A DNA stretch of 64,000 nucleotides from Pseudohongiella sp. (GTDB taxonomy: Bacteria; Pseudomonadota; Gammaproteobacteria; Pseudomonadales; Pseudohongiellaceae). The position numbers and the translations under genes are program-made. Shown here in pieces: positions 11,699 to 31,317 of the stretch. The stretch covers positions 62,001-126,000 of the forward strand of contig JAUSCD010000031.1 of assembly GCA_030651695.1 (NCBI GenBank). Reading direction: 5' to 3'. The notes under the pieces are model-generated. The model was not told the DNA's origin and made no database searches. It worked only from the letters and a program-made list of their open reading frames with translations. Each line of letters starts with the position of its first letter. Positions within the stretch are counted from its first letter, which is position 1.

Positions 11699-14600
11699 AT
11701 GTTACCGATTTCTCTTGTCCTGTTTGCTGCTTTTGCTTATCTACTGCTGCTGTTCACCATCGCCTCCCGCGGCGAACGCAAAACCGCACAAGGTCCAAGA
11801 CCCTGGCGCTACACACTGGCCCTGGGTGTACATTGCACCACCTGGGCGTTTTACGGCACGGTGACCCAGGCTGCGCAGTACGGCTGGTGGTTTGCCCCGA
11901 CCTATCTGGGCGGCATTTGTATCTTCCTGTTTGCGCATCAGTTTCAGCTCAAGATGCTGACGCTGGTGAAGGCGCAGAACCTGACCTCCATCGCCGACCT
12001 GATAGGGTCACGCTACGGCAAATCGCCACTGCTTGCTGCCAGTGTTGCATTGATTTGCCTGGTGGCTCTGATTCCGTATATCTCCCTGCAACTGCGCGCG
12101 GTAGCAGCCAGTTTTGCTGCCATTACAGGTATGGGCCCGGCGGTGGCACCATGGTTTCTGGATCTGGCCGCGGCGGTCGGGCTGGCCATGATAGGCTTTT
12201 CCATTCTGTTTGGTGCCCGGCGCCTCAGTCTGGCAGAACAACACCCCGGATTGATGGACGCGGTGGCATTTGAATCCCTGGTCAAACTTGCCGCCTTTTG
12301 TATCGTGGGTGTGTTTGTCACCTGGCAGCTATTTGACGGCATAAATGATCTGATTATGAAAACTGCTGCTGACAACACAGCGCGCAGCCTGTTTCAGCCC
12401 AAAGAAAACGGCGTCTATATCTACGTGACGCATATGCTGCTGGGCGCGCTTGCGATGTTTGTGCTGCCTCGCCAGTTCCACGTCAACTTTATTGAAAATA
12501 CCGATGCCGATGAATTAAAAAAAGCGCGCTGGGCATTTCCGCTTTACCTTTTTGCTATCAATTTTTTTATCCTGCCAATTGCCATGGGCGGTATGTTACT
12601 GGCGCCGGAGATGCGCACGCAGGATACCTTTTTGCTAGCCCTGCCCATTCTGGCTGACCGGCCGGACATCAGCCTGATTGCCTTTATCGGGGGTCTGTCC
12701 ACGGCCACCAGCATGGTCATTATGGCAACACTGGCACTCAGTATCATGATCTCCAACGATGTCATTACGCCGCTATGGATACGCGCACGGCGCACCGGCA
12801 ACCTGATGTCTGACATAACACCACAAGGCATCCTGCTGACACGCCGGCTGACCATGGTGGTGATTATTGTACTGGCCTACGTCTATCACAAACTCACTCA
12901 AAGTGGATTGCCGCTGGTCAGCAACGGGCTGATTGCGATGGCTTTGCTCGCACAACTTGCGCCCTCAATGTTGGGCGGACTGATGTGGGCAGGCGCCAAC
13001 CGACTGGGCGCCATGTCTGGCTTGCTGGCCGGCACCAGCGTCTGGTTTGTGATGCTGCTATTGCCCTCACTGAATCCATCGACGATATTGACTGACAAGG
13101 CAATCAGTGACGGTGTTGTGCTCAGCCTGAGCATCAACATTCTGATTTACCTGCTGGTTTCATTACTGACAAAAGAATCCTCTGCTGAGCACCAGCAAGC
13201 CCTGCGCTTCACAAAGCCAGAACACAAAAACGACACCGTGCTGGAATCACAGCAGGTCACCTGGGGACGACTGCGTTTGGTATTGTCGCGCTTTATGGAT
13301 TCTAAAGACGCCGAAGGCCTGGACCGCAGACTGGGTATGGCCATTGCCAACATTCCTGACGACAGACTGGTACACCCGGCACTGCTGGTGCGGCTGGAGC
13401 GGGAACTCGCCGGCGCCATTGGCAGTTCTGCCAGCAGATTGCTGATCAACAGTCTCGCGCGCCCCTCTACTGTGGCCGTTGATCAGGTGGTGGACTGGGC
13501 TTCCGAAGCATCACAGCTGTATCGGTTTAATCGCGAACTGCTGCAAGCATCAGTTGAGAATATCCCACAAGGTGTCAGCGTAATTGACAAGGAGCTGCGT
13601 CTGGTTGCCTGGAACCGGCGATACCTGGAAATTTTTGCTTATCCTGATGGCCTGATACGGGCCGGCGTAGCCATAGAAGAAATCCTGCGTTTTAACGCGC
13701 GCCGCGGACTATTTGGTGGCGGTTTGTCGGGCAACGACAGTGATATCGAAAAAGAAGTCAGCAAACGTCTGGCATTCCTGAAAAGCGGCAGCCGTTATCG
13801 CTACCAGCGCCAGCAGCCCTCCGGCCACATCATCGAACTGCAGGGTAATCCCATGCCTGATGGTGGTTTTGTTACAACCTACACCGACATCACTGAGTTG
13901 GTCACCGCACAAAATGAACTCAAACAAATCAACACCGAGCTGGAGGCGCGCGTCCAGGAGCGGACACAAGCCTTGTCGGTTGCCAAGCTGGCAGCGGAGC
14001 ACGCACATCAAAGTAAATCAAAGTTTTTTGCCGCGGCCGGCCACGATTTGATGCAACCGTTTAATGCCGCCAGTTTGTTCTGCGGCATGTTGTTACAACG
14101 TCTGAAAAACGACGACGCCAGACTTGCACTACAGATTCAGCAATCCCTGCAAAATGCGGAAGAATTGCTCACCATGTTGCTGGAGATGACCAAGCTGGAA
14201 TCCGGCAACCTGCAGGCGCACAAAAAAGATGTAGCACTGTCTGATGTACTGGCGCCACTGGAAGCCTCATTTGCCATGATGGCACGAGAAAAAGGTCTGG
14301 ATTTCCGCATTCATCACAGCCAGGTAGTGCTACACACAGACCAGAAAATATTACAGAGAATTGTGCAGAACCTGCTCAGCAATGCGCTGCGTTATACCCA
14401 CCAGGGCAGAGTCATCTGCGGTGTGCGTCGGCGCAGTAGTGATTGTATTGAGCTACAGGTCTGGGATACCGGCCGCGGCATTCCTGCAGAAAAATTCAAT
14501 GAAATATTTATGGAGTTTAAACAGCTTGACCAACAGGATCACAACCCGGGTCTGGGACTGGGCCTGGCCATTGTGGATAGAATGTGCAAGCTGCTGGAGA

Positions 14601-15091
14601 TACCCATCAACTTAAAATCCACCGTAAATCGAGGCACCTGTTTTTCTCTGACCTTACCGGTAGCGAGCTGGAAAAGCCGAACTGTGCCGCGCAGACAGGA
14701 GTATCGTGATAACTCCAGCTGGACCATGCCAGAGGACACACAAGTGCTGTTGCTGGATGATGATCCCAATATACGCGAAGCGCTGGCATCACTGCTGCAC
14801 GAATGGGGCGCGACGGTGACAGCCTGCGCAACAATTGCTGAGGCCATGTCACAAACACAGCAACCTGATTTATTATTTATCGATTACCACCTGTCGGAAA
14901 CCGATGTTGGTACTGATGCCATCCGTCGTATCCGGGAACGTTGGAATAGTGATATTCCCGCTATTCTGAGCACAGCGGATCCGGACGAACACATCCGTGA
15001 GCAAGTGGTGGAAGTCGGAGCGCTGTTCCTGCCAAAACCGGTTAAACAGGCCGCCCTAAAACGCCTGCTGAAAAGCATCGGTTTGGGCTAA
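11699..15091 (+). CDS. crbS: CrbS-like hybrid sensor kinase with SLC5 transporter-like sensor domain
   Basis: 1130 residues. The N-terminal ~480 residues form a sodium/solute-symporter-like membrane domain of about 13 helices. Then come a linker, a PAS_7 domain (about 620-720, 'ASVENIPQGVSVIDKELRLVAWNRRYLEIF'), a coiled coil, HisKA with His782 in 'FFAAAGHDLMQPFN', HATPase ('NLLSNALRYT', 'DTGRGIP', 'LGLGLAI'), and a C-terminal receiver with acceptor Asp1062 ('DLLFIDYHLSE'). This is the architecture of CrbS, which with CrbR controls acetate/acetyl-CoA metabolism in Vibrio and Pseudomonas. The convergent LuxR-type regulator 11 bases away is the probable partner. The ligand here is inferred only. 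Confidence 0.85.
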   Translation: MLPISLVLFAAFAYLLLLFTIASRGERKTAQGPRPWRYTLALGVHCTTWAFYGTVTQAAQYGWWFAPTYLGGICIFLFAHQFQLKMLTLVKAQNLTSIADLIGSRYGKSPLLAASVALICLVALIPYISLQLRAVAASFAAITGMGPAVAPWFLDLAAAVGLAMIGFSILFGARRLSLAEQHPGLMDAVAFESLVKLAAFCIVGVFVTWQLFDGINDLIMKTAADNTARSLFQPKENGVYIYVTHMLLGALAMFVLPRQFHVNFIENTDADELKKARWAFPLYLFAINFFILPIAMGGMLLAPEMRTQDTFLLALPILADRPDISLIAFIGGLSTATSMVIMATLALSIMISNDVITPLWIRARRTGNLMSDITPQGILLTRRLTMVVIIVLAYVYHKLTQSGLPLVSNGLIAMALLAQLAPSMLGGLMWAGANRLGAMSGLLAGTSVWFVMLLLPSLNPSTILTDKAISDGVVLSLSINILIYLLVSLLTKESSAEHQQALRFTKPEHKNDTVLESQQVTWGRLRLVLSRFMDSKDAEGLDRRLGMAIANIPDDRLVHPALLVRLERELAGAIGSSASRLLINSLARPSTVAVDQVVDWASEASQLYRFNRELLQASVENIPQGVSVIDKELRLVAWNRRYLEIFAYPDGLIRAGVAIEEILRFNARRGLFGGGLSGNDSDIEKEVSKRLAFLKSGSRYRYQRQQPSGHIIELQGNPMPDGGFVTTYTDITELVTAQNELKQINTELEARVQERTQALSVAKLAAEHAHQSKSKFFAAAGHDLMQPFNAASLFCGMLLQRLKNDDARLALQIQQSLQNAEELLTMLLEMTKLESGNLQAHKKDVALSDVLAPLEASFAMMAREKGLDFRIHHSQVVLHTDQKILQRIVQNLLSNALRYTHQGRVICGVRRRSSDCIELQVWDTGRGIPAEKFNEIFMEFKQLDQQDHNPGLGLGLAIVDRMCKLLEIPINLKSTVNRGTCFSLTLPVASWKSRTVPRRQEYRDNSSWTMPEDTQVLLLDDDPNIREALASLLHEWGATVTACATIAEAMSQTQQPDLLFIDYHLSETDVGTDAIRRIRERWNSDIPAILSTADPDEHIREQVVEVGALFLPKPVKQAALKRLLKSIGLG

Positions 15092-15102
15092 TTCAGAACG
15101 GG

Positions 15103-15771
15103 TCAATCAGATTGTGCAGCATTGTCTTCATCACCTGCGCGCAGCATGTCATGAAACAGCACGCCGGCCTGCGTTCTGTTGATCACACCGAGTTTGCGCA
15201 GGATGGCTGATACATGTTGTTTGATGGTGGATTCCTGTACATCCATTTCGTACGCAATCTGTTTGTTCAGCAGACCATCGGAAATACAGCGCAACACTTT
15301 GAACTGCTGAGGTGTCAGTTGCGACAACCGGTGTGCAAAGTCGCGATTCAGCGGATGATTTTGCTCTACAAGACCATTGCCCAGATGTGCCGGTAGCCAG
15401 TTGTCGCCACCGAGCACCGTTTCCACTGCCTCTATGATATCTGCCAGGGGCGCAGACTTCGGCACATATGCACTGGCCCCAAAACTCATCGCACGCTCTA
15501 TCACGTTGAGCTGCTCATTTGCTGAGACGATCATCACCTGGACATCCGGAAACTGGTTACGCACGGCCGTTAATCCCGTGAGTCCCTGATTACCCGGCAT
15601 ATTGAGATCCATCAACACCAACTCTACCTGTGGCTCCTGCTCAAGTATCTCCATCAATTGATCAAAATTGCCAGCGTCACGCACTTGCCCCTGCAATGTT
15701 GCGCCCAGCGTCTGGCGTAAAGCTGCTCTGAACAGGGGATGATCGTCAGCAATAATGGCTTTGATGGGCAA
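15103..15771 (-). CDS. crbR: CrbR/ErdR-like LuxR-family response regulator
   Basis: Receiver domain 'IKAIIADDHPLFRAAL' with phospho-acceptor Asp in 'LVLMDLNMPG' and the conserved Lys in 'YVPKSAP', then a LuxR/NarL helix-turn-helix 'LTPQQFKVLRCISDGLLNKQIAYEMDVQESTIKQHVSAILRKL'. The family (CrbR, ErdR/AgmR) activates acetyl-CoA synthetase and related genes. Start choice: the frame runs on to an ATG at 15858, but that ATG lies inside the terminator hairpin of the TonB receptor gene. I therefore prefer the TTG at 15771, which gives a normal receiver N-terminus (MPIKAIIADDH) and has GGAA upstream. The start is not certain. Confidence 0.82.
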   Translation of the reverse strand: MPIKAIIADDHPLFRAALRQTLGATLQGQVRDAGNFDQLMEILEQEPQVELVLMDLNMPGNQGLTGLTAVRNQFPDVQVMIVSANEQLNVIERAMSFGASAYVPKSAPLADIIEAVETVLGGDNWLPAHLGNGLVEQNHPLNRDFAHRLSQLTPQQFKVLRCISDGLLNKQIAYEMDVQESTIKQHVSAILRKLGVINRTQAGVLFHDMLRAGDEDNAAQSD

Positions 15772-15822
15772 ATTAAATTCCGGTACGTCTTGCAATCGGG
15801 AATCCCAAACTAATACAGGCTG

Positions 15823-15857
15823 AAAAAAAATGCCACCATCACAAAGTAATGGTGGCA
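15823..15857 (-). terminator. Strong Rho-independent terminator of the TonB receptor gene
   Basis: TGCCACCAT (15831-15839) pairs perfectly with ATGGTGGCA (15849-15857) across a 9-base loop. On the minus strand it is followed by eight T residues (15830-15823). It lies 22 bases past the receptor stop. Confidence 0.92.
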
Positions 15858-15879
15858 AGAGGTCCTACGATCAAATCAA

Positions 15880-22659: not shown

Positions 22660-22956
22660 TCAGTGACGAACGACTCCATAACTAAAAGTCGATACGATTG
22701 GCAGGAAAATAACAAAAGCCCATGTTTCTAGTATTAAAAAGAAAATAAAGTCGCGCTCTATCAACATCGAACGAACAACCAGAAATGCCAGGTATTGTGA
22801 TATCAACATGTTTGAAAATAGTACCACGACCGATGTTTCCATCAAGTGTCCACACTTTTTGCATTCTATAGACCAATCGTAGACTGCCAGTATCCGTTGC
22901 AGCACTGGAATCTTTTTGTCACAACGGTGGCAGCTTCGCTTAATATCACTAAACAT
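22660..22956 (-). CDS. Small zinc-ribbon membrane protein (possible immunity protein)
   Basis: 98 residues, not recognised as a named family. The N-terminus has two CxxC pairs, 'SCHRCDKK' and 'ECKKCGH', spaced as a zinc ribbon. Two to three hydrophobic segments follow: 'VVVLFSNMLISQYLAFLVV', 'FIFFLILETWAFVIFLPIV'. It lies on the same strand just beyond the terminator of the two-peptide genes, with an AGAGG-like site before its ATG. Small membrane proteins next to class II bacteriocin genes are often immunity proteins, so that is a reasonable guess, but the sequence itself does not show it. Confidence 0.55.
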   Translation of the reverse strand: MFSDIKRSCHRCDKKIPVLQRILAVYDWSIECKKCGHLMETSVVVLFSNMLISQYLAFLVVRSMLIERDFIFFLILETWAFVIFLPIVSTFSYGVVRH

Positions 22957-23002
22957 GTATACGATGCCTCTAGGTTATTCTGATTACCTGAGAAATAAGA
23001 AA

Positions 23003-23025
23003 CCGCTGAACACAAGGTTCAGCGG
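23003..23025 (-). terminator. Terminator of the double-glycine peptide operon
   Basis: CCGCTGAAC (23003-23011) pairs with GTTCAGCGG (23017-23025) across ACAAG. On the minus strand a T-rich tract follows. It lies 12 bases past the stop of the second peptide gene. Confidence 0.8.
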
Positions 23026-23037
23026 CGCTTTTTGCAT

Positions 23038-23205
23038 TTAACTATCGCTTTCTAGATAGCCCGTTGTTGCACCGCCAAGTGCGCCCGCGGCTAACGCAGG
23101 CACTACTCGGACCGCCACGTAACGAACGGCGACATAAGCAGCCATGACAAGCACAGGATTGCCGCCCGAAACGGTTTCTATTTCTGACCGATTTAGCTCA
23201 ATCAT
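23038..23205 (-). CDS. Double-glycine-leader peptide B (microcin/bacteriocin precursor)
   Basis: 55 residues, starting at the ATG at 23205 with GGGAG (23213-23217) upstream; the longer open frame to 23274 overlaps peptide A and is not used. Leader 'MIELNRSEIETVSGG' is a textbook class II double-glycine leader, with acidic/hydrophobic residues at fixed positions and GG at 14-15. The predicted 40-residue core begins NPVLVMAAYV, is rich in Val and Ala, has a GxxxG motif (GALGG), two Arg near the middle, no Cys, and ends LESDS. The C39 exporter encoded upstream in the same transcript would cleave after GG. Function as an antibacterial peptide is inferred. Confidence 0.85.
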   Translation of the reverse strand: MIELNRSEIETVSGGNPVLVMAAYVAVRYVAVRVVPALAAGALGGATTGYLESDS

Positions 23206-23218
23206 CACTTTTCTCCCG

Positions 23219-23371
23219 CTACGAGTCGGATACGAATTCGCGCGCGTAGTATGCAGCTGTAGCTGCGCCCGCAATGGAAACCACCCATGTCACCCCCTTA
23301 ACTGCCAACGCAGCAAGTGGCACCGCACCTCCAGCGACCTGACTGACTTCATCTTTTTTTAGCTCACGCAT
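23219..23371 (-). CDS. Double-glycine-leader peptide A (microcin/bacteriocin precursor)
   Basis: 50 residues, found by direct reading because it is short. ATG at 23371 with AGGAG (23380-23384) 8 bases upstream; TAG at 23221-23219. Leader 'MRELKKDEVSQVAGG' has the same length and pattern as peptide B's leader. The 35-residue core begins AVPLAALAVK, contains GVTWVVSIAG and AATAAYYARE, has AxxxA/GxxxA helix-packing motifs and no Cys, and ends FVSDS. The peptide B start is 13 bases downstream, so the two are surely co-translated. Two non-identical hydrophobic peptides side by side are the arrangement of two-peptide (class IIb) bacteriocins. Confidence 0.87.
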   Translation of the reverse strand: MRELKKDEVSQVAGGAVPLAALAVKGVTWVVSIAGAATAAYYAREFVSDS

Positions 23372-23424: not shown

Positions 23425-25536
23425 TTATGACTCCGTCCCTGTGACAAACCTGCCGCCACAATCCTTGTCCAAAATTATTTTCTTGCTGGCCAACTGATAA
23501 ATTTCCGGTCTGTGACTGATCAGAACAATACTGGTCTTCAAGGCTTGCAGGGATCTGATAACTGCCTTCTCGGTCTCAATATCGAGGTTGGCTGTTGCTT
23601 CATCCAGAAACAGAATTTTTGCCTGTTTGTAGAAAGCGCGGGCCAGCAATATCCGCTGCGCCTGGCCCGCTGACAGCATGGATCCCATGTCACCTATCAT
23701 GCTGTTGTAGTTCATGGGAAGTGAGACAATCAGATCATGAATCAACGCCTGTTTCGCAGCATGATGTACCCGTTCTATATCAGGCTGGTGATCAAACAAG
23801 GTGATATTGTCCAGTATGGACCCAGACAATAGTTGATCCGTCTGCAAAATGCCGGCACAAATATCACGGTACTGCCGTATCCCTGAATCACGGATATCTC
23901 TGTCGTCGAGTTTTACCACGCCCTGATCTGGCTGCAGTAATCCCGCCATAATTTTCAGTAACGTCGACTTGCCGACACCTGATGGCCCAACTAGCGCGAC
24001 TACCTCACCAGGCTCCAATACAAGATCAACACCAGTCAGAACAGGAATATGGCTGCCAGGATAACTGTAAGAAATATTCTCCAGTGTCAGCTTGCCACGC
24101 GAGGGTGTTCTGATTGCCGGCAAATGAATAGTGCTGAACTCTTTTTCTGTGCATGTGATGTCTGACACCCGTTCCAGCTGCAGCCTGACCAGACGGATCT
24201 GTACCAGCTTGTCGATGAATGATCTGATAGCGGTTGAAAAATTGCCTTTCAGGGCAACAAAAGCCGTCAGGAACCCCAGTGTAAGCACGCCAGCAAGTAC
24301 CTGGGTGGCGGCAAGATAAACTACCAACACATTCTCGATTGCAAACAGCGTACCAAAGACCAGATCGAGCTTTATTGTAAAGCGCGCCAGATGAACCTGT
24401 GTGTTGATCTGTTCTGCGTACGCGTTCCGCCACATCAGCACCCGCGGCAGCTCCCGGCAATAGAACTTGATCACTTGAATGGCCCGCATGTTCTCCATCA
24501 GTGCGCTACTGGTTTTGGCCTCAGCCACAATGAGCTGCTCTTGCAGTGTTTGAATAGAGGGGATGGCCAATAATTTCAGTAGCGAAACCAGCACCACAAA
24601 CAGCAAGACAACTGACGCCAACAAAGGGCTGAAATAGAACATCACCAGCAAGGTAATAACTGCAAACAGCCCATCAAGCACGACCGTGATCATATCTTCA
24701 CTTATGATTCTGCGGATTTCCCGTATCGACCCAAATCGGGAAACAAGATCGCCCACGTGCCGGCGCTCGAAAAAATCCGCCGGCAGGCTCATCATGTGAG
24801 TGAACACATTGCCTACCATCTGGAACCCAAGCTGATTGGAGAAATACAGCTGAACTTGCGATCTGGCGTATGCCATCACTACCCCTGACAGTGCCAGCAG
24901 AGCGAATCCGGTCGCAAGTATTTTCAGTATGTCCTGGTCCTGTTTTGACAAGCTCTCATCGATCACGGTCTGCATAAAAAATGCACCGCCAATTGATACC
25001 AATTGCAAACACATTGATAACAAAAACAGCTGTACTACTGAAGACATGAATCCCGGATACCTGACAAACAAATCCGTCAGTTTTGATCGTAAAATCCGGG
25101 TCTGAGGTACAAACCCTGCCGCTGGCGTAAACTCAACAGCAATCCCGGTGAAATGTCTGCCGGCCTCATTGAATCCGTATGTCCTCTCACCCACGGCAGG
25201 GTCATTGATAACCAGACCCTTTTTGCTGATTTTTTTCAGCACAACAAAATGCGTCATGTCCCAGTGCAGGACTGCCGGCAGCTGTAGCGCACTAAGGTCT
25301 TCGAGCTCCAATTTAAGCGCGCGGGTACTCATACTCAGCGCTTCGGCGATGCCGAGAATATCTGCCAGATTCGCGCCCCGGCCAGAAACGGCATGGTCTC
25401 TGCGTAAACTGTTCAGATCGATTTTGTTTCCAAAATACGTTGCTATCATGGCCAGGCATGCCAGCCCGCATTCTGTGCGCTCGGACTGGAGAATGCAGGG
25501 CATGTGAGTCCTCGACTGAAACAGGGCACTCATCAC
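23425..25536 (-). CDS. C39-peptidase bacteriocin ABC exporter
   Basis: 703 residues. An N-terminal C39 Cys peptidase has its full triad: Cys23 in 'QSERTECGLACLAM', His96 in 'DMTHFVVL' and Asp112 in 'INDPAVG'. It should therefore cleave double-glycine leaders while exporting. A six-helix ABC transmembrane domain follows (about 165-450), then a nucleotide-binding domain with Walker A 'LVGPSGVGKSTLL', signature 'LSAGQAQRILLARAF' and Walker B 'ILFLDEATANLD'. CvaB of colicin V is the archetype. It overlaps the HlyD gene by 4 bases and is followed after 53 bases by the two precursor peptides. Confidence 0.93.
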   Translation of the reverse strand: MMSALFQSRTHMPCILQSERTECGLACLAMIATYFGNKIDLNSLRRDHAVSGRGANLADILGIAEALSMSTRALKLELEDLSALQLPAVLHWDMTHFVVLKKISKKGLVINDPAVGERTYGFNEAGRHFTGIAVEFTPAAGFVPQTRILRSKLTDLFVRYPGFMSSVVQLFLLSMCLQLVSIGGAFFMQTVIDESLSKQDQDILKILATGFALLALSGVVMAYARSQVQLYFSNQLGFQMVGNVFTHMMSLPADFFERRHVGDLVSRFGSIREIRRIISEDMITVVLDGLFAVITLLVMFYFSPLLASVVLLFVVLVSLLKLLAIPSIQTLQEQLIVAEAKTSSALMENMRAIQVIKFYCRELPRVLMWRNAYAEQINTQVHLARFTIKLDLVFGTLFAIENVLVVYLAATQVLAGVLTLGFLTAFVALKGNFSTAIRSFIDKLVQIRLVRLQLERVSDITCTEKEFSTIHLPAIRTPSRGKLTLENISYSYPGSHIPVLTGVDLVLEPGEVVALVGPSGVGKSTLLKIMAGLLQPDQGVVKLDDRDIRDSGIRQYRDICAGILQTDQLLSGSILDNITLFDHQPDIERVHHAAKQALIHDLIVSLPMNYNSMIGDMGSMLSAGQAQRILLARAFYKQAKILFLDEATANLDIETEKAVIRSLQALKTSIVLISHRPEIYQLASKKIILDKDCGGRFVTGTES

Positions 25537-26765
25537 AACCTCCTCGCCAGTGAAGTCAACGGTTCCATGATCCCCTGCAAAATAGTGCGCTGTCCCGTAA
25601 CAAGCTGAGCGCTGAACTGCATACCTGAACGCAGACTCAGGTTGTGCCGCAGTGGCAACAACTCTGCTTTTAGTAAATACACTGGCTCATTGATATCCAG
25701 AGGAATCAGATGTTCCCGAGGATCAATCACTGCGGTTCCGATTGAGCTCACTACCGCTTCATAACTCCCGTACTGCTGATAGGGAAATGCATCGTAGTTT
25801 AGCAGCACTTTCTGGCCCGCTTTTATTTTCCCGAGCGCACGCGACGGCACAAATATCTGGGCCTCATAGTCAGGGGCATCAGCAACAATGCTTACGAATG
25901 GCCGATGCGGGTCAAGTTGATCACCACGTGATAGAAGCAGATTGTTTATTCTCCCGGACACCGGAGCTGCGACCGTAAAGTTCTGCTCATACAGCGCCTC
26001 CTCGCGACGTTGCTCCAATTGCGATAGACTGATTTGCAAGGCGATCTGCTCATCTTTCAGTCTTGCCTGCTCGACTGCGGCGTCGTGACGGCTGTCTTCC
26101 TTCAGGCGGGCTGTGGACTGCAGTGCCATACGCATATTCTGGAAAGATTTTCTCATTGATATCAGAGATGCTTTTCCATGTGTCAGCTCGCTCTCTGAAA
26201 TAGCACCACGCTCCCATAGACGTTCGAGTCGGGCGTAGTCACCTTCGGCCATTTCCAGCTGCAACATGGACAGATCATATTCTTCAGCACGTATCAAGAT
26301 CTCTTCGCGCAAAGCCAACTCACGTTTTTCTGACTGATCATATGCCAGTCGTTGCCTCTCCGCTGACAAAAGTAGCCGGGCCTCCAGATGCGATATCTGA
26401 TGTTCAATACGCCGAATGATTGCCTGCTTCGCAGCATCGCCAGTCTGGTCATAACCAGGCTCAATAAGGGATACCAGCGCTTGGCCTTGACTGACTAATT
26501 GTCCATTGCTTACGTGCAGTTTTTCAACGACACCACTACGGTTGCCATAGACTTTTACCTCGCCGTTGGTGGCATAGATAAAACCTCTGACGTTCTCCGT
26601 CTGTTTTATGCTGGCCGACGCCGCGAACCCTGCAACTACAAAAAAAAATCCCGCTGCCGATAGCAGAAGTACACGAAGCGTCAACGGCTGATAGAACACA
26701 GCATCACCAAAAAAATGGTCGCGCTGCACCCCAAGCACCTCTCGCCTGAACAGATTATCGCGCAT
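25533..26765 (-). CDS. HlyD-family membrane fusion protein of the peptide exporter
   Basis: 410 residues. One N-terminal membrane segment (about 29-52, 'VLLLSAAGFFFVVAGFAASA'), a split lipoyl domain ('ATNGEVKVYGNRSGVVEKLHVSNGQLVSQGQALVSL' and 'FTVAAPVSGRINNLLLSRGDQLDP'), a long coiled-coil hairpin between them, and a C-terminal beta-barrel 'KAGQKVLLNYDAFPYQQYGSYEAVVSSIG'. This is the CvaA/HlyD periplasmic adaptor linking the inner-membrane ABC exporter to an outer-membrane TolC channel. It overlaps the acyltransferase gene by 11 bases and the exporter by 4. No TolC is encoded in the window. Confidence 0.92.
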   Translation of the reverse strand: MRDNLFRREVLGVQRDHFFGDAVFYQPLTLRVLLLSAAGFFFVVAGFAASASIKQTENVRGFIYATNGEVKVYGNRSGVVEKLHVSNGQLVSQGQALVSLIEPGYDQTGDAAKQAIIRRIEHQISHLEARLLLSAERQRLAYDQSEKRELALREEILIRAEEYDLSMLQLEMAEGDYARLERLWERGAISESELTHGKASLISMRKSFQNMRMALQSTARLKEDSRHDAAVEQARLKDEQIALQISLSQLEQRREEALYEQNFTVAAPVSGRINNLLLSRGDQLDPHRPFVSIVADAPDYEAQIFVPSRALGKIKAGQKVLLNYDAFPYQQYGSYEAVVSSIGTAVIDPREHLIPLDINEPVYLLKAELLPLRHNLSLRSGMQFSAQLVTGQRTILQGIMEPLTSLARRL

Positions 26766-28050
26766 GGCTTACAACCTCCTGCTGCTGGCCGGAGTTCTCG
26801 TTAGCCAGATAGGACGGGAGAGTATCCAGATATTTCCACTGTGCCGGGTATTGTCTGATCCAGCGTTCAGCCAATGTCACAAGAGTCTGCGTTACCCTGG
26901 ATGTTGCGTCTTGCAGACTCTCACCCGGACGCAGCTCTGGGACAAAGGCGGGCTCCATACGAATCCAGTCACGGCCATCCTCCGAATAAGAAACAAACGG
27001 ATAGATTCTTGCCCGCCCCATAATTGCAAGCTCGGCAGGGCCTCTCACAAACCGGGCTCTATGCCCGAAAAACAAGGCCTCCGTTGTCTCGCCAAAGTCT
27101 CTGCCGAGGTCAAACATTACTGAGAGTGTCTGCCCGCCTGCTCTTAATGCTCTGACTATCGTCACCGGGTTTTCTTTTCCGTGCATATAGACCCGATGAC
27201 CAGCAGCGTGCCTGCGGCTTAAGGTTCTGATCGAATCAGTGTCCCCTTCACGGCGCAAAGAAATCACGGAGCGGGATTGATCCAGCGCATCAGCTATGGC
27301 TTTAAATGCGCCAAAAAAGTCCCCCATGTGGATGCTGACAAGAACTCTGGAGTCGTCACAGTCCCGGCTCATTGCTACGTAAGCATCTCTTTCTGGCCAG
27401 CAGAATGTTTGCTTAAAACTGCCATCGTCTGATTGTCTTAAATGTCTGAGGCGACGCGCATAGTTCCATTGCAGATAATATTGGTGACTCCGGAGCATGT
27501 CTGCCACAGTGGACTGAGGCTCCTGAAGTAAATGTGAAAGCACTTCCAATCGTGTGCTTTGGTATTTCCGGGCGTCCTTCACCCTGCCAGCCAGCCGGAT
27601 CTGGATGCCGGACAGAATATTTATGGTCCCCTTCTGCAGCGCAGGAGCAATAGTCGAATCCACAACTCTCCGCAAAATTTTTCTGAACGCAATGACGAGT
27701 TTTTCAGTTGCGCTTGCGGACGAAAGTGGGTGGCAGGAGTTTTGAATAGCCGCAATAGCAGCAGAAAGCTCCTGATGCAGAGTCTTTGTAAAAATAATAT
27801 CGTCGACTATATTTCCGCAAAAATGCACACTGAATCCTTGCTCGCCACGGGTCACCCTGAACGTTCTGCGTGAAGCCGGCAAAAGAGCAAGCATCATCAG
27901 ATTAAGAGGCTCTATTCGACTATTGATCAGCTCCTCAAGGCGCAGTTGCAGCGCCAAACATTGCTGCCGATGTGATGAAGCATGCTCCTGCCTTGCTACG
28001 TCATTCACTTGTTGCGTACTCCGGGACTGCCGAAAATAGCGAAACCACAT
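26755..28050 (-). CDS. Soluble LpxL/HtrB-like acyltransferase
   Basis: 431 residues. Residues about 230-400 follow the LpxL-type lysophospholipid/lipid A acyltransferase fold: 'RVLVSIHMGDFFGAFKAIADAL', 'ALRAGGQTLSVMFDLGRDFGETTEALFFGHRARFVRGPAELAIMGRARIYPFV' and a C-terminal 'ERWIRQYPAQWKYLDTL' like the QWxW region. The HX4D/E catalytic motif is odd: His241 is followed by Met-Gly-Asp-Phe-Phe, so the acid is at +3, not +5. The first ~200 residues match nothing I know, and the usual N-terminal membrane anchor is missing. It likely takes acyl chains from the adjacent acyl carrier protein. The ATG at 28050 overlaps that gene by 50 bases; a GTG at 28005, overlapping its stop, is an alternative. Confidence 0.75.
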   Translation of the reverse strand: MWFRYFRQSRSTQQVNDVARQEHASSHRQQCLALQLRLEELINSRIEPLNLMMLALLPASRRTFRVTRGEQGFSVHFCGNIVDDIIFTKTLHQELSAAIAAIQNSCHPLSSASATEKLVIAFRKILRRVVDSTIAPALQKGTINILSGIQIRLAGRVKDARKYQSTRLEVLSHLLQEPQSTVADMLRSHQYYLQWNYARRLRHLRQSDDGSFKQTFCWPERDAYVAMSRDCDDSRVLVSIHMGDFFGAFKAIADALDQSRSVISLRREGDTDSIRTLSRRHAAGHRVYMHGKENPVTIVRALRAGGQTLSVMFDLGRDFGETTEALFFGHRARFVRGPAELAIMGRARIYPFVSYSEDGRDWIRMEPAFVPELRPGESLQDATSRVTQTLVTLAERWIRQYPAQWKYLDTLPSYLANENSGQQQEVVSHAR

Positions 28051-28288
28051 CCCCCAAGGTGCGGGCCTCAGCCATCAGACCTTCGTCGGCAGCAACATCA
28101 AAGTGGCGCTCCATTTCAAATATGATTTCCACCAAGCGCAGTGAATCCATTGCAAGATCGGCTATCAATGTCTGATCGTTGAGCTCGAGCGCAGCGTCCA
28201 CACCCGGAGTCGCCTGAAGCAGATCACACAGCTTTCTGAACACTTGAGCTCTGTTGCCAACATCTGTTGTGATAGTGAACTCAGGCAT
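28001..28288 (-). CDS. Dedicated acyl carrier protein
   Basis: 95 residues. The phosphopantetheine-attachment motif 'DLAMDSLRLVEIIFEME' has its Ser at residue 49, and the surrounding helices 'FRKLCDLLQATPGVDAAL' and 'EARTLGDVVSLFSAV' fit the carrier-protein fold. It overlaps the acyl-AMP ligase stop by 8 bases, and such pairs load fatty acids directly from acyl-adenylate onto the carrier. Within this operon it would hand the acyl group to the LpxL-like enzyme. It is clearly not the housekeeping AcpP, which sits in fab operons and has a more acidic sequence. Confidence 0.88.
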   Translation of the reverse strand: MPEFTITTDVGNRAQVFRKLCDLLQATPGVDAALELNDQTLIADLAMDSLRLVEIIFEMERHFDVAADEGLMAEARTLGDVVSLFSAVPEYATSE

Positions 28289-30008
28289 TGGCTACCTCCT
28301 TCGCCTGCTTACTGGCAACTTTCCCTGAAGATCGTTTCCCGGCAGGGTCTGCGGCGCCTATCAATTCGGCGTAAACATCAAGACACATGGAACGCACTGG
28401 TTTTCCGCTGCTGGTCAGAGGAAGAGTGGCTGAAGGCACTATCACTACTGCGTGAGGAATAACTCCAAAAGTATCGCAGACGAGGTTCTTGAGCTGGCGC
28501 TCAAGTTGCCTGTCATCCGCTGCGCCTACAGCGCGCCGTCTGCCTTTGCGCTCAGCCATTATGACAAAGGTATCTATCTCGTCAGCCTGCACACCTAATG
28601 CAACACATCGCTGCAGACCCAGATCAGCGGTCTCGATCTGTAACAGCGATTCGATATCTTCAGCGTGCAGACTGCGACCACGAACCTTAATGACATTTTT
28701 TAGCCGACCACTGAAATACAGCCTGCCGTCGCGTATGAACCCTAAATCTCCGGTTCGGAAAAACGCCGGACGACTGCCGGCTATCTGATTGAAGCTGTAT
28801 CTGGAGAGAATCGACTGGCGATAGTACCCCGGTGACACCGACGCCGAGCTGATCCAGATCTCTCCGGCGACCCCCTCCGCGCAGACCTGCCTGGTCACCG
28901 GATCAACAATTTCTACAACTGCTTCATCATTTCTCTGGTCTTTCAGGTCCCCGATACAGACATAGTTCTCCCTGCTTCCCGTTACAGACGAAAGTGCGAT
29001 TCCGCGGACGCCGCACACATACAACGTAGACTCTGCCATGCCATAACATGGGAACCATGCATTGCGCGAGAAGCCCGACTCTGCATAGCGTTTTGCAAAC
29101 AGCTCCAGCGTAGTTGCGGAAATCCGGTCGGAACCGCAATAAGCAAGTCGCCACTGCCCAAGGTTCAGACTCTTGGGCAGCTGACCGGTTTGCCGCGCAC
29201 AAAACCCAAAGGCGAAGCCAGGTCCGCCACTGATCGTCACGCAGTACTTCGAGACAGCCTCTATCCAGCGGGACGGGTCGGCCAGAAAATCGACGGGATT
29301 CAGAAAATAGTTGTGTATCCCGGCATACAGTGGCTGCAACACATGGCCTATCAGGCCCATATCATGGTGCAGTGGCAACCAGCTTAATCCCACATCATTA
29401 CTGGTGCAGCCAAACGCGCGGCTTATGCTGGCCAGGTTGTTCATCACATTCGCGTGGGTGATAACAACGCCTTTTGGATTCGATGTGGATCCTGATGTGT
29501 ACTGTATAAAAGCAATGTCATCGGCAGTGATTGATGGGCGAATCCACGGCATTCGCGAATTTCCAGCTTCTTCAGGCGAGGTGCTACCGGTTTGCTGATC
29601 GGAGACTATAACCGGGATCCCCTCCAATTGATGACGGGGCATGAACCGGGCGATTGCAGAGCTGGTGATGATTGCAGAAGCACCGCTTTGCACCGCGAGG
29701 GCGGCAAGCTGACTCCATTTGTGGCCGCGAGGTCTGGCACACGGCATTGGCCAGGCACCCGCAAGAATACAAGCCCAGAATGATCTGACAAACTCAACAT
29801 TCTTCTGCTGAATCAACAACACAGGAGTCCGGTTCAAGCCGCTCCGTTGCAGGCGACAAGCAAAATTTCTGGCATCCTCAAACAGTCGCGCATATGTCAG
29901 AGACTCACTACAATTCAGATCTCTGTCCAGAAATGAGTAAAGAGGTTTATACGGAGTGTCAGAAGCGCCTGCCTCAAGCAAGCTGATAAGATCCCTGTCC
30001 CTGGGCAT
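28281..30008 (-). CDS. Fatty acyl-AMP ligase (FAAL)
   Basis: 575 residues of the FAAL branch of adenylate-forming enzymes: 'DIAFIQYTSGSTSNPKGVVITHANVMNN', 'GLSWLPLHHDMGLIGHVLQPLYAG', 'WFPCYGMAESTLYVCGVRG', 'FFRTGDLGFIRDGRLYFSGRLKNVIKVRGRSLHAEDIE' and a C-terminal 'LPLTSSGKPVRS' with the catalytic Lys. FAALs activate free fatty acids as acyl-AMP and pass them to a carrier protein without making CoA esters; the next gene is that carrier. It is the first gene of the peptide operon, with AAGGA upstream of the ATG. An acyl-CoA ligase role is less likely given the FAAL motifs and the coupled carrier gene. Confidence 0.9.
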   Translation of the reverse strand: MPRDRDLISLLEAGASDTPYKPLYSFLDRDLNCSESLTYARLFEDARNFACRLQRSGLNRTPVLLIQQKNVEFVRSFWACILAGAWPMPCARPRGHKWSQLAALAVQSGASAIITSSAIARFMPRHQLEGIPVIVSDQQTGSTSPEEAGNSRMPWIRPSITADDIAFIQYTSGSTSNPKGVVITHANVMNNLASISRAFGCTSNDVGLSWLPLHHDMGLIGHVLQPLYAGIHNYFLNPVDFLADPSRWIEAVSKYCVTISGGPGFAFGFCARQTGQLPKSLNLGQWRLAYCGSDRISATTLELFAKRYAESGFSRNAWFPCYGMAESTLYVCGVRGIALSSVTGSRENYVCIGDLKDQRNDEAVVEIVDPVTRQVCAEGVAGEIWISSASVSPGYYRQSILSRYSFNQIAGSRPAFFRTGDLGFIRDGRLYFSGRLKNVIKVRGRSLHAEDIESLLQIETADLGLQRCVALGVQADEIDTFVIMAERKGRRRAVGAADDRQLERQLKNLVCDTFGVIPHAVVIVPSATLPLTSSGKPVRSMCLDVYAELIGAADPAGKRSSGKVASKQAKEVANA

Positions 30009-30324
30009 AAATAATTCCTTGGCCTGGCTGTTCAGGCGTTTGCTAAAAATTGTTTATTCGTCTCGCATGAATTTTACCCTCTGGTGCTCAGCAAGCATCG
30101 TCCTGACTCTTGCACAACATCAGATGTCTACCTGTTAAGAATAATCAATAAAAATACAGCGTAAAAAATATTTTTCGTATACCAGCTAAAACTTTTCTGT
30201 AAATGTGAAGTCGTGCACATTTATTACATCACACCTGTGCATTAAAAATATATTTCGGCAAAGCAATAAATAATTGGTCTTAGATAGGTTTATAAAATTC
30301 ATTACCAGCGTAATAGAAACCTTG
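30009..30324. other. AT-rich divergent promoter region of the peptide locus
   Basis: About 316 bases between the acyl-AMP ligase and the diiron oxygenase. It is distinctly AT-rich compared with neighbouring genes, contains the CRP-like site at 30201-30222 and several TATA-like hexamers, and has no convincing coding frame. Exact promoters cannot be chosen by eye. Confidence 0.7.
30201..30222. promoter_or_regulatory. Near-consensus CRP/Vfr binding site
   Basis: AAATGTGA-N6-GCACATTT matches 15 of the 16 arm positions of the E. coli CRP consensus (AAATGTGA-N6-TCACATTT). It lies between the divergent acyl-AMP ligase operon and the oxygenase gene, so one site could control both. Confidence 0.75.
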
Positions 30325-31317
30325 ATGGAGATCGCATTGATAAAATCGGAAATATTCGTACCTGACGAAACTGAATTCAGTCAGATATTCAATAATAGTT
30401 TCAACGGTTTTTTATTGTGGAATTACCATACAAACTCCTCTCAGGAGTCTTTTTCCTGTATCAGGCTTGTCAGCCTTGCGGAAAAAAAACGATGGAGCCC
30501 ATACCTTGATATCGACTGGCCGCCTGATACTTTGGGCAGCCGGTTCCCTTGCGCAGACTACGCAGATCCTTTTGCTGGCTTTGATCAATATGAAAAGCTG
30601 TCACGACCGGACAGGCTGCGCGTCGCCTGGCAACGGCACGCGATGGAGATCAGTGAGCTACTGCACGGAGAACAGCTTGCGCTGATGTGTGCCTCGCAAC
30701 TGATCTCAATGATGCCTTGTATGGAGAGCAGACTATTTGCCAGCACCCAGGTAGCTGATGAAGCCCGGCATGTAGAATTTTTCAGGCGGTATCTTGCCTC
30801 CGCAGGTCTGGATATCTGTGGACCCAGCCCGGCTCTCCGGCATCTGACCGTCGATACCCTGCAAGACCCCAGATGGGAGATCAAATTACTGATCTGCCAG
30901 ATACTCATAGAAAGCCTGGCACTGGCACAGTTCAGTCATCTGGCGCAGGCGGGTGTCCCGCCGACATTGAAACAAGGGCTGCGCAGGATTATGGATGATG
31001 AGGCACGACACGTGAGATTTGGCACCGACTACCTCAAGTCATTATTCAGAAGTCACAACGCCGAACAACTCACCGGATACGGAAACTATGTTATCGATAA
31101 AGCGTTTGAACTGGCTCCGTCTGACAATCAGTGCCTCGCCATAGCTCGCGACCACCAATGGGACATACACAAACTCCGGCAACATCTGCGCCAGCAAAGA
31201 ATTGGCAGGCCAGAACTTATTCGCCAACGGTTTCGGCAACTCTCCATAAATATCAAGGCTATAGGATTGATGAATGCGTCAATTGAGGAACGAATCATGC
31301 GATTTACCGGGACTTGA
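30325..31317 (+). CDS. Ferritin-like diiron oxygenase
   Basis: About 330 residues, four-helix-bundle diiron type. Ligand motifs are two EXXH copies, 'ADEARHVEFF' and 'MDDEARHVRFG', paired with upstream glutamates in 'LLHGEQLALMCASQ' and 'ILIESLALAQF'. This pattern fits AurF-like N-oxygenases and related ferritin-like oxidases or desaturases. It is divergent from the acyl-ligase/peptide operon across the CRP site, so it probably modifies the acyl chain or the peptides, but the substrate is unknown. Start: ATG at 30325 has no good ribosome site; a TTG at 30337 has GGAG 6 bases upstream and may be the true start. The frame also opens earlier, at a TTG at 30274. Confidence 0.75.
   Translation: MEIALIKSEIFVPDETEFSQIFNNSFNGFLLWNYHTNSSQESFSCIRLVSLAEKKRWSPYLDIDWPPDTLGSRFPCADYADPFAGFDQYEKLSRPDRLRVAWQRHAMEISELLHGEQLALMCASQLISMMPCMESRLFASTQVADEARHVEFFRRYLASAGLDICGPSPALRHLTVDTLQDPRWEIKLLICQILIESLALAQFSHLAQAGVPPTLKQGLRRIMDDEARHVRFGTDYLKSLFRSHNAEQLTGYGNYVIDKAFELAPSDNQCLAIARDHQWDIHKLRQHLRQQRIGRPELIRQRFRQLSINIKAIGLMNASIEERIMRFTGT

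Follow-up and report, generated by a model that had tools for sequence, protein, structure and literature searches.

The window, that is the whole stretch of 64,000 nucleotides from a Pseudohongiella sp. contig that was analysed, contains a cassette in which two short peptide genes, pepA and pepB, follow the gene for a C39 peptidase ABC exporter. Genes for a membrane fusion protein and for fatty acid activation and transfer lie upstream in the same direction, and an oxygenase-like gene is read divergently. The features are, in window coordinates:

22660-22956, minus strand: candidate immunity protein of 98 aa with a CxxC...CxxC arrangement and a hydrophobic C-terminal half
23002-23026, minus strand: hairpin terminator 3' of pepB, terminator-like on both strands
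23038-23205, minus strand: pepB, 55-aa precursor with a 15-aa GG leader and a 40-aa core with GxxxG motifs
23219-23371, minus strand: pepA, 50-aa precursor with a 15-aa GG leader and a 35-aa core
23425-25536, minus strand: C39 peptidase ABC exporter with the triad C23/H96/D112 and Q17
25533-26765, minus strand: HlyD-type membrane fusion protein (Pfam scan), preceding the exporter
26755-28050, minus strand: LPLAT-family acyltransferase with a PatA/LpxM-like fold, HxGD(F/Y) replacing HX4D/E
28001-28288, minus strand: acyl carrier protein (ACP) with phosphopantetheine Ser49
28281-30008, minus strand: fatty-acyl-AMP ligase-like enzyme, with FAAL models among its best matches, below their cut-offs
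30009-30273, no strand: divergent intergenic region of 265 bp, AT-rich, with presumed promoters
30274-31317, plus strand: AurF/ferritin-like diiron oxygenase, divergent; the true start may be an internal ATG

As the sequence-only reading had it, two consecutive minus-strand genes encode peptides of 50 and 55 residues with 15-residue leaders ending in GG (MRELKKDEVSQVAGG in pepA, MIELNRSEIETVSGG in pepB). The strong ribosome sites it had claimed do precede them (AAAAGGAG for pepA, GGGAG for pepB), and both cores are indeed hydrophobic, free of Cys and terminated by SDS. Both cores have a net charge of 0. The GxxxG motifs of pepB are GALGG and GATTG; pepA has only small-xxx-small patterns. NCBIfam model TIGR03949 (lactobin A/cerein 7B) matched pepA with 24.0 bits at a cut-off of 21.5, and pepB was not listed for this model at E<=1; in a Pfam scan, pepB matched PF10439 with an E value of 0.0024, below the cut-off. 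The exporter gene is separated from pepA by 53 bp and pepA from pepB by 13 bp. Since nothing in the 53-bp gap resembles a terminator on the minus strand, and a hairpin terminator lies 3' of pepB, the exporter, pepA and pepB are probably on one transcript.

A strict pattern of leader and ribosome site was searched in the real window and in 20 Markov-1 windows of 64 kb. It gave 0 ORFs in the 20 Markov-1 windows and three starts in the real window, which are pepA and pepB, the latter counted from two starts. An orthologous pair is located at the same place in LSUCC0112 (genome G001), with 66% and 63% identity. Substitutions relative to LSUCC0112 fell at third codon positions in 29 of 50 cases for pepA and 37 of 63 for pepB, and dN/dS was 0.14-0.20 for pepA and 0.29 for pepB, the latter by the single method that yielded a value. 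Chance ORFs were thus ruled out by the Markov-1 null, the ortholog pair and the codon-like substitutions, and the presence of an orthologous pair under purifying selection in a relative of the genus argues that pepA and pepB are real genes.

The peptidase triad of the exporter, described before as complete, was confirmed (Cys23, His96 and Asp112, plus Gln17), and Cys, His and Asp are kept in 52 of 53 aligned C39 exporters, the window's included; in the remaining one (L063), a fragment at a contig edge, Asn replaces Asp. The exporter is the one long-frame C39 match found in the genome, two further matches to the C39 family being in frames of 340 and 177 aa. Within the genus, 13 of 15 genomes have the exporter; the two genomes without it (G002 and G013) nonetheless carry GG peptides. 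For comparison of the cassettes, 26 loci were used, which cover every genome of the genus that has the exporter (13 of 13) and 13 of 14 from the sister genus (G068 left out). The idea that each exporter has an adjoining peptide was rejected, as leader patterns placed a GG peptide in the cassette at 8 of these 26 loci, a count that may miss some because a few contigs stop soon after the exporter. The 8 loci comprise two pairs and three single peptides 3' of the exporter and three peptides beyond AurF. The sister-genus loci L097, L100 and L104 have their GG peptides at this opposite cassette end, past AurF, and in L097 and L100 a hydrophobic protein of 171 or 165 aa comes after the GG peptide.

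The hairpin at 23002-23026 has a folding energy of -17.2 kcal/mol (z -2.98); terminator-like sites in the region numbered 11, compared with 7.7 in shuffles. It separates pepB from the gene for the 98-aa protein, so that the latter may need read-through or a promoter of its own. Hydrophobic 19-residue windows were found in this protein between residues 42 and 96, and its match to TIGR04104 was weak and below the cut-off. The gene was found in 2 of the 137 genomes of the family, and these are precisely the two with the pepA/pepB pair; this co-occurrence with pair-bearing genomes only makes the 98-aa membrane protein the likely immunity protein for the pair. The earlier expectation that relatives with this exporter would have a homologous pair held in part: the pair is present in 2 of 13 exporter-bearing genus genomes, the window's own (G000) and LSUCC0112, but two others have a different single peptide. 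In these (G005 and G011), the same site 3' of the exporter is occupied by an 86- or 89-aa GG peptide followed by a hydrophobic protein of 122 or 108 aa; for the other nine, the leader-pattern search found no GG peptide beside the exporter. A constant exporter with swapped peptide and membrane protein would be the pattern of bacteriocin loci. In G006 the site is empty, the match to the neighbouring gene starting within ~20 bp of the exporter stop, and that gene is itself broken up, which points to a deletion rather than a clean exchange. None of the other immunity candidates had a Pfam match above the cut-off, and a PADLOC scan gave no useful result. In L127 (G093), visual inspection showed a GG peptide followed by a protein of 89 aa that, like the 98-aa candidate, combines CxxC pairs with hydrophobic stretches; the 98-aa protein did not match it at E<=0.01.

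The most unusual part of the operon, an acyl-activation and acyl-transfer pathway, had been overlooked in the sequence-only reading. The genes for the fatty-acyl-AMP ligase, the ACP and the acyltransferase lie upstream of the exporter in the same direction with overlapping ends. All cassette genes of the window are open, and AurF retains its ExxH motifs. The intergenic region between ligase and AurF has a GC content of 0.351 compared with 0.528 for the window; a promoter scan of it scored no better than shuffles. The acyltransferase matched Lip_A_acyltrans in Pfam with 27.2 bits (cut-off 22.3). Its structure was predicted with a pLDDT of 75.4 and a pTM of 0.75 (other four models 57-65) and matched PatA of Mycobacterium smegmatis with an E value of 1.0e-10 and TM-scores of 0.75 (target) and 0.46 (query); LpxM was matched as well. 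The catalytic motif of Lip_A_acyltrans and LPLAT enzymes is HX4D/E. In the alignment, His241 is invariant (15 of 15 rows) and an Asp stands at +3 in 14 of 15 rows; the window's enzyme has no acid at +5 and reads HxGD where HX4D/E is expected, so that its chemistry cannot be assigned from the sequence.

All six genes (AurF, FAAL, ACP, acyltransferase, HlyD and C39) were matched at 18 of the 26 loci; of the remaining 8, three are sister-genus loci where HlyD-C39 stands alone and the others are contig-edge or decayed cassettes. A more distant genus (L105) retains acyltransferase, ACP, HlyD and C39, and its 19-kb locus gave no ligase or AurF match. Across the family, a profile search (E<=1e-8) found the acyltransferase in 59 of 137 genomes, and in 53 of these 59 loci the same strand has the start of a C39 exporter 1,225-1,621 bp further downstream; most acyltransferase-free genomes did not contribute exporters to this comparison. 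Among the six unlinked cases are two weak partial matches and loci with the exporter on another contig or not found. Among the matches listed, with at most 4 candidates scored per genome, the profile of the acyltransferase found the window's own genome alone out of 369 from the class, and 0 of the 368 others, which lie outside the family, at E<=1e-15; a plasmid search gave no match. Matches to TIGR03949 above the cut-off were obtained for 23 of the 137 genomes of the family and, among the matches listed at E<=0.001, in 2 of 369 class genomes. Some close relatives have lost acyl genes. AurF is frameshifted in G001 (L064), which has the pair; G006 (L110) has an AurF remnant and an ACP position without match; and G004 (L107) has ACP and acyltransferase deleted; all three kept HlyD-C39. 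A broken acyltransferase in G001 was considered because of a TGA reported inside the match and was rejected, since this stop precedes the probable start codon and leaves the reading frame open. Because close relatives lose AurF, ACP or acyltransferase and yet retain HlyD-C39, acylation appears unnecessary for persistence of the exporter, and this argues against its being essential. The sister-genus loci reduced to HlyD-C39, the missing HX4D/E motif and the peptides of acyltransferase genomes that do not end in Ser weigh against acylation as well.

GG peptides were surveyed with a leader model and a ribosome-site pattern over the sampled loci. From 87 matches, 3 implausible ones (window, L130 and L168) and 20 from other families were removed; the 64 family GG peptides left describe the content of the sampled loci, are no census and do not include every leader-model match. 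Ser is the C-terminal residue in 44 of 64. Among 457 long open frames taken as background it ends 33 (7.2%), and among the 20 GG peptides from other families it ends 1. When the cores were clustered, Ser was the majority ending in 35 of 53 clusters at 60% identity, 14 of 26 at 40% and 7 of 16 at 30%. Peptides from genomes with the acyltransferase ended in Ser in 39 of 50 cases and those from genomes without it in 5 of 14 (p=0.007), and by genome the numbers were 24 of 28 and 5 of 11 (p=0.017), both comparisons ignoring kinship. With an earlier, less sensitive acyltransferase list, Ser was found in 30 of 39 and 14 of 25 (p=0.10); the more sensitive list behind p=0.007 was made after that result. 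The C-terminal Ser is lacking in 11 of the 50 peptides from acyltransferase genomes (e.g. G069, G072 and G076). Since 43 of the 64 family cores are free of Lys, Lys would seem disfavoured as a general site of acylation.

Some family genomes carry several GG peptides each, including ones without linkage to the exporter. A further one, of 49 aa with the leader MIELTNAEVSQVSGG, lies far from the exporter in the window's genome (G000:C24:9036-9140, L121), and very similar cores occur in G001, G003, G012 and G013. In L121, L123 and L126 a convergent hydrophobic ORF of 71-76 aa adjoins this type of peptide. L153 (G119:C94) has three GG peptides in tandem (48, 61 and 62 aa) on a contig that also contains a C39 exporter.

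The view that such a system would be unusual in gammaproteobacteria was overstated, as GG bacteriocins are known there, namely mcbABCI and the class II microcins (accessible parts of PMC2761928 and PMC9746304). The mcbABCI operon of Moraxella catarrhalis is described in the main text of its report as encoding HlyD, an HlyB-like ABC exporter, a GG bacteriocin and a small immunity protein (PMC2761928), and the window's locus shares this combination in a gammaproteobacterial operon, with a candidate for the immunity protein. Unlike the pair of the window, mcbABCI has one peptide, with the GG leader at residues 25-39 of the predicted protein, and the word 'acyl' is absent from that main text. Class II microcins, as portrayed in the sections available of PMC10233263, have a leader of 15-18 aa ending in GG or GA, a PCAT with a Cys/His/Asp triad and an MFP, and immunity proteins of 51-216 aa are encoded nearby, usually with TM helices (also PMC9746304). 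The 15-aa GG leaders, the PCAT with its triad and MFP, and the 98-aa putative immunity protein with its hydrophobic windows agree with this description; the cores of 35 and 40 aa differ from the 60-90 aa given there (PMC10233263). The characterised members are mostly from Enterobacteriaceae, siderophore attachment being the known tailoring (PMC10233263).

Taken together, we consider that there is about an even chance that pepA and pepB are a bacteriocin pair that is exported by C39/HlyD after acylation, which may take place at the C-terminal Ser. Of this model, export and immunity have support from the sequence. The fatty-acyl-AMP ligase and its dedicated ACP would load a fatty acid onto the carrier, where the AurF-like oxygenase perhaps modifies it, and the acyltransferase of PatA/LpxM fold would move the acyl group to the peptides; the most plausible acceptor would be the C-terminal Ser that is common to most peptides of the family. 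The C39 domain would then cleave both leaders after GG, and the ABC exporter together with HlyD and a TolC-type channel would release cores of 35 and 40 residues. Once released, the cores would integrate into the inner membrane of relatives that compete with the producer and presumably kill these, for which both peptides may be needed and may act in synergy, and the 98-aa membrane protein, encoded past the terminator, would shield the producer.

A wider version of this model is more tentative: throughout the family, the diverged LPLAT enzyme and its ACP might attach a fatty acid, perhaps an oxidised one, as an ester to the C-terminal Ser shared by many otherwise unrelated GG peptides, which C39 would then export. 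Siderophore (class IIb) microcins offer a precedent for modification at this residue, as their C-terminal Ser receives a siderophore tail according to the available portions of PMC10233263 and PMC9746304; they have a Ser/Gly-rich tail and siderophore-attachment genes, and pepA and pepB share the C-terminal Ser without such a tail, and the moiety attached is a siderophore and not an acyl chain. Equally tentatively, lipid-tailed microcins could be the lipid counterpart of this siderophore tail, with exchangeable peptide-immunity modules, some of them far from the exporter. In the accessible text, the word 'acyltransferase' is absent from PMC10233263 and 'acyl' from PMC9746304, PMC11798529 and PMC10333792. 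If acylated, the peptides would resemble the fatty-acylated RiPPs (selidamides, nostolysamides and lipolanthines in the partial descriptions at hand) in that a ribosomal peptide carries an acyl chain. Selidamides depend on GNAT-type maturases. Nostolysamides are, in the same descriptions, Lys-acylated lanthipeptides; in the window, the enzyme beside the GG peptides has an LPLAT fold and is accompanied by an ACP and a FAAL of its own. Searches of the open-licence literature found no acylated or lipidated bacteriocins or microcins and no acyltransferase tied to ACP, HlyD and microcins; among the matches listed there, nothing relevant came up for FAAL, ACP, C39 and bacteriocin in combination and nothing apparently relevant for Pseudohongiella and bacteriocin.

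Class IIb two-peptide bacteriocins of Gram-positive bacteria have GxxxG or GxxxG-like motifs in both peptides, and their cores are typically cationic; one cognate immunity protein serves the pair, and both peptides are required for activity. That pepA and pepB form an ordinary, unmodified pair of this type, with acyl genes that serve otherwise or are decaying baggage, is possible but clearly less probable than acylation before export. The pepA match to TIGR03949 above the cut-off, the GxxxG motifs of pepB, the adjacent GG-leader genes kept as a pair with 13 bp and a ribosome site between them, the single immunity candidate and the retention of the exporter in close relatives that drop acyl genes all speak for it; the occurrence of 53 of 59 acyltransferases within a C39 operon is too tight for family-wide baggage. 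The neutral cores, the restriction of GxxxG to pepB, the HlyD-dependent export across two membranes and the upstream acyl genes also set the pair apart from class IIb. From the class IIb assignment made earlier, a C39-exported bacteriocin pair therefore stands, well supported by leaders, triad, the conserved pair and the immunity candidate; membership in the synergistic class does not follow, because pepA lacks GxxxG and both cores have a net charge of 0.

A comparably limited probability applies to pepA and pepB being independent single bacteriocins that share an exporter and form no synergistic pair, which would fit with the several GG peptides per genome seen elsewhere in the family, with the third one of the window's genome at G000:C24 and with the sharing of an exporter by microcins of one cluster (part of PMC10233263); against this stands that pair and single immunity candidate occur only in the same two genomes and in fixed order.

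The known substrates of PatA and LpxM are lipids, and the fold shared with these lipid acyltransferases would also suit a pathway that alters the producer's own lipids, for self-protection or an envelope change, with the peptides exported unmodified; we regard this as unlikely in view of the dedicated ACP, the fixed position beside HlyD-C39 and the peptide-linked immunity candidate that is already present. GG leaders also occur in pheromones, which is a point in favour of signalling. A role of pepA and pepB as signalling or self-lysis peptides instead of weapons is nevertheless the least probable reading, since the cassette has no regulator inside it (Pfam scan of its genes) and relatives that differ in the peptide differ in the small membrane protein too, although the nap peptides of Neisseria act in autolysis (available portion of PMC11798529) and genes that by eye encode a hybrid sensor kinase (11699-15091) and a response regulator of LuxR type (15103-15858) lie ~7 kb away. 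The hybrid sensor kinase has 1130 aa.

If a marine gammaproteobacterial family does make fatty-acylated GG peptides, as would be the case when pepA and pepB are acylated before export, acyl tailoring would be a second general route to membranes. The conserved acyltransferase-ACP-exporter operon would then flag genomes for peptides that are too short or too variable to be found directly.
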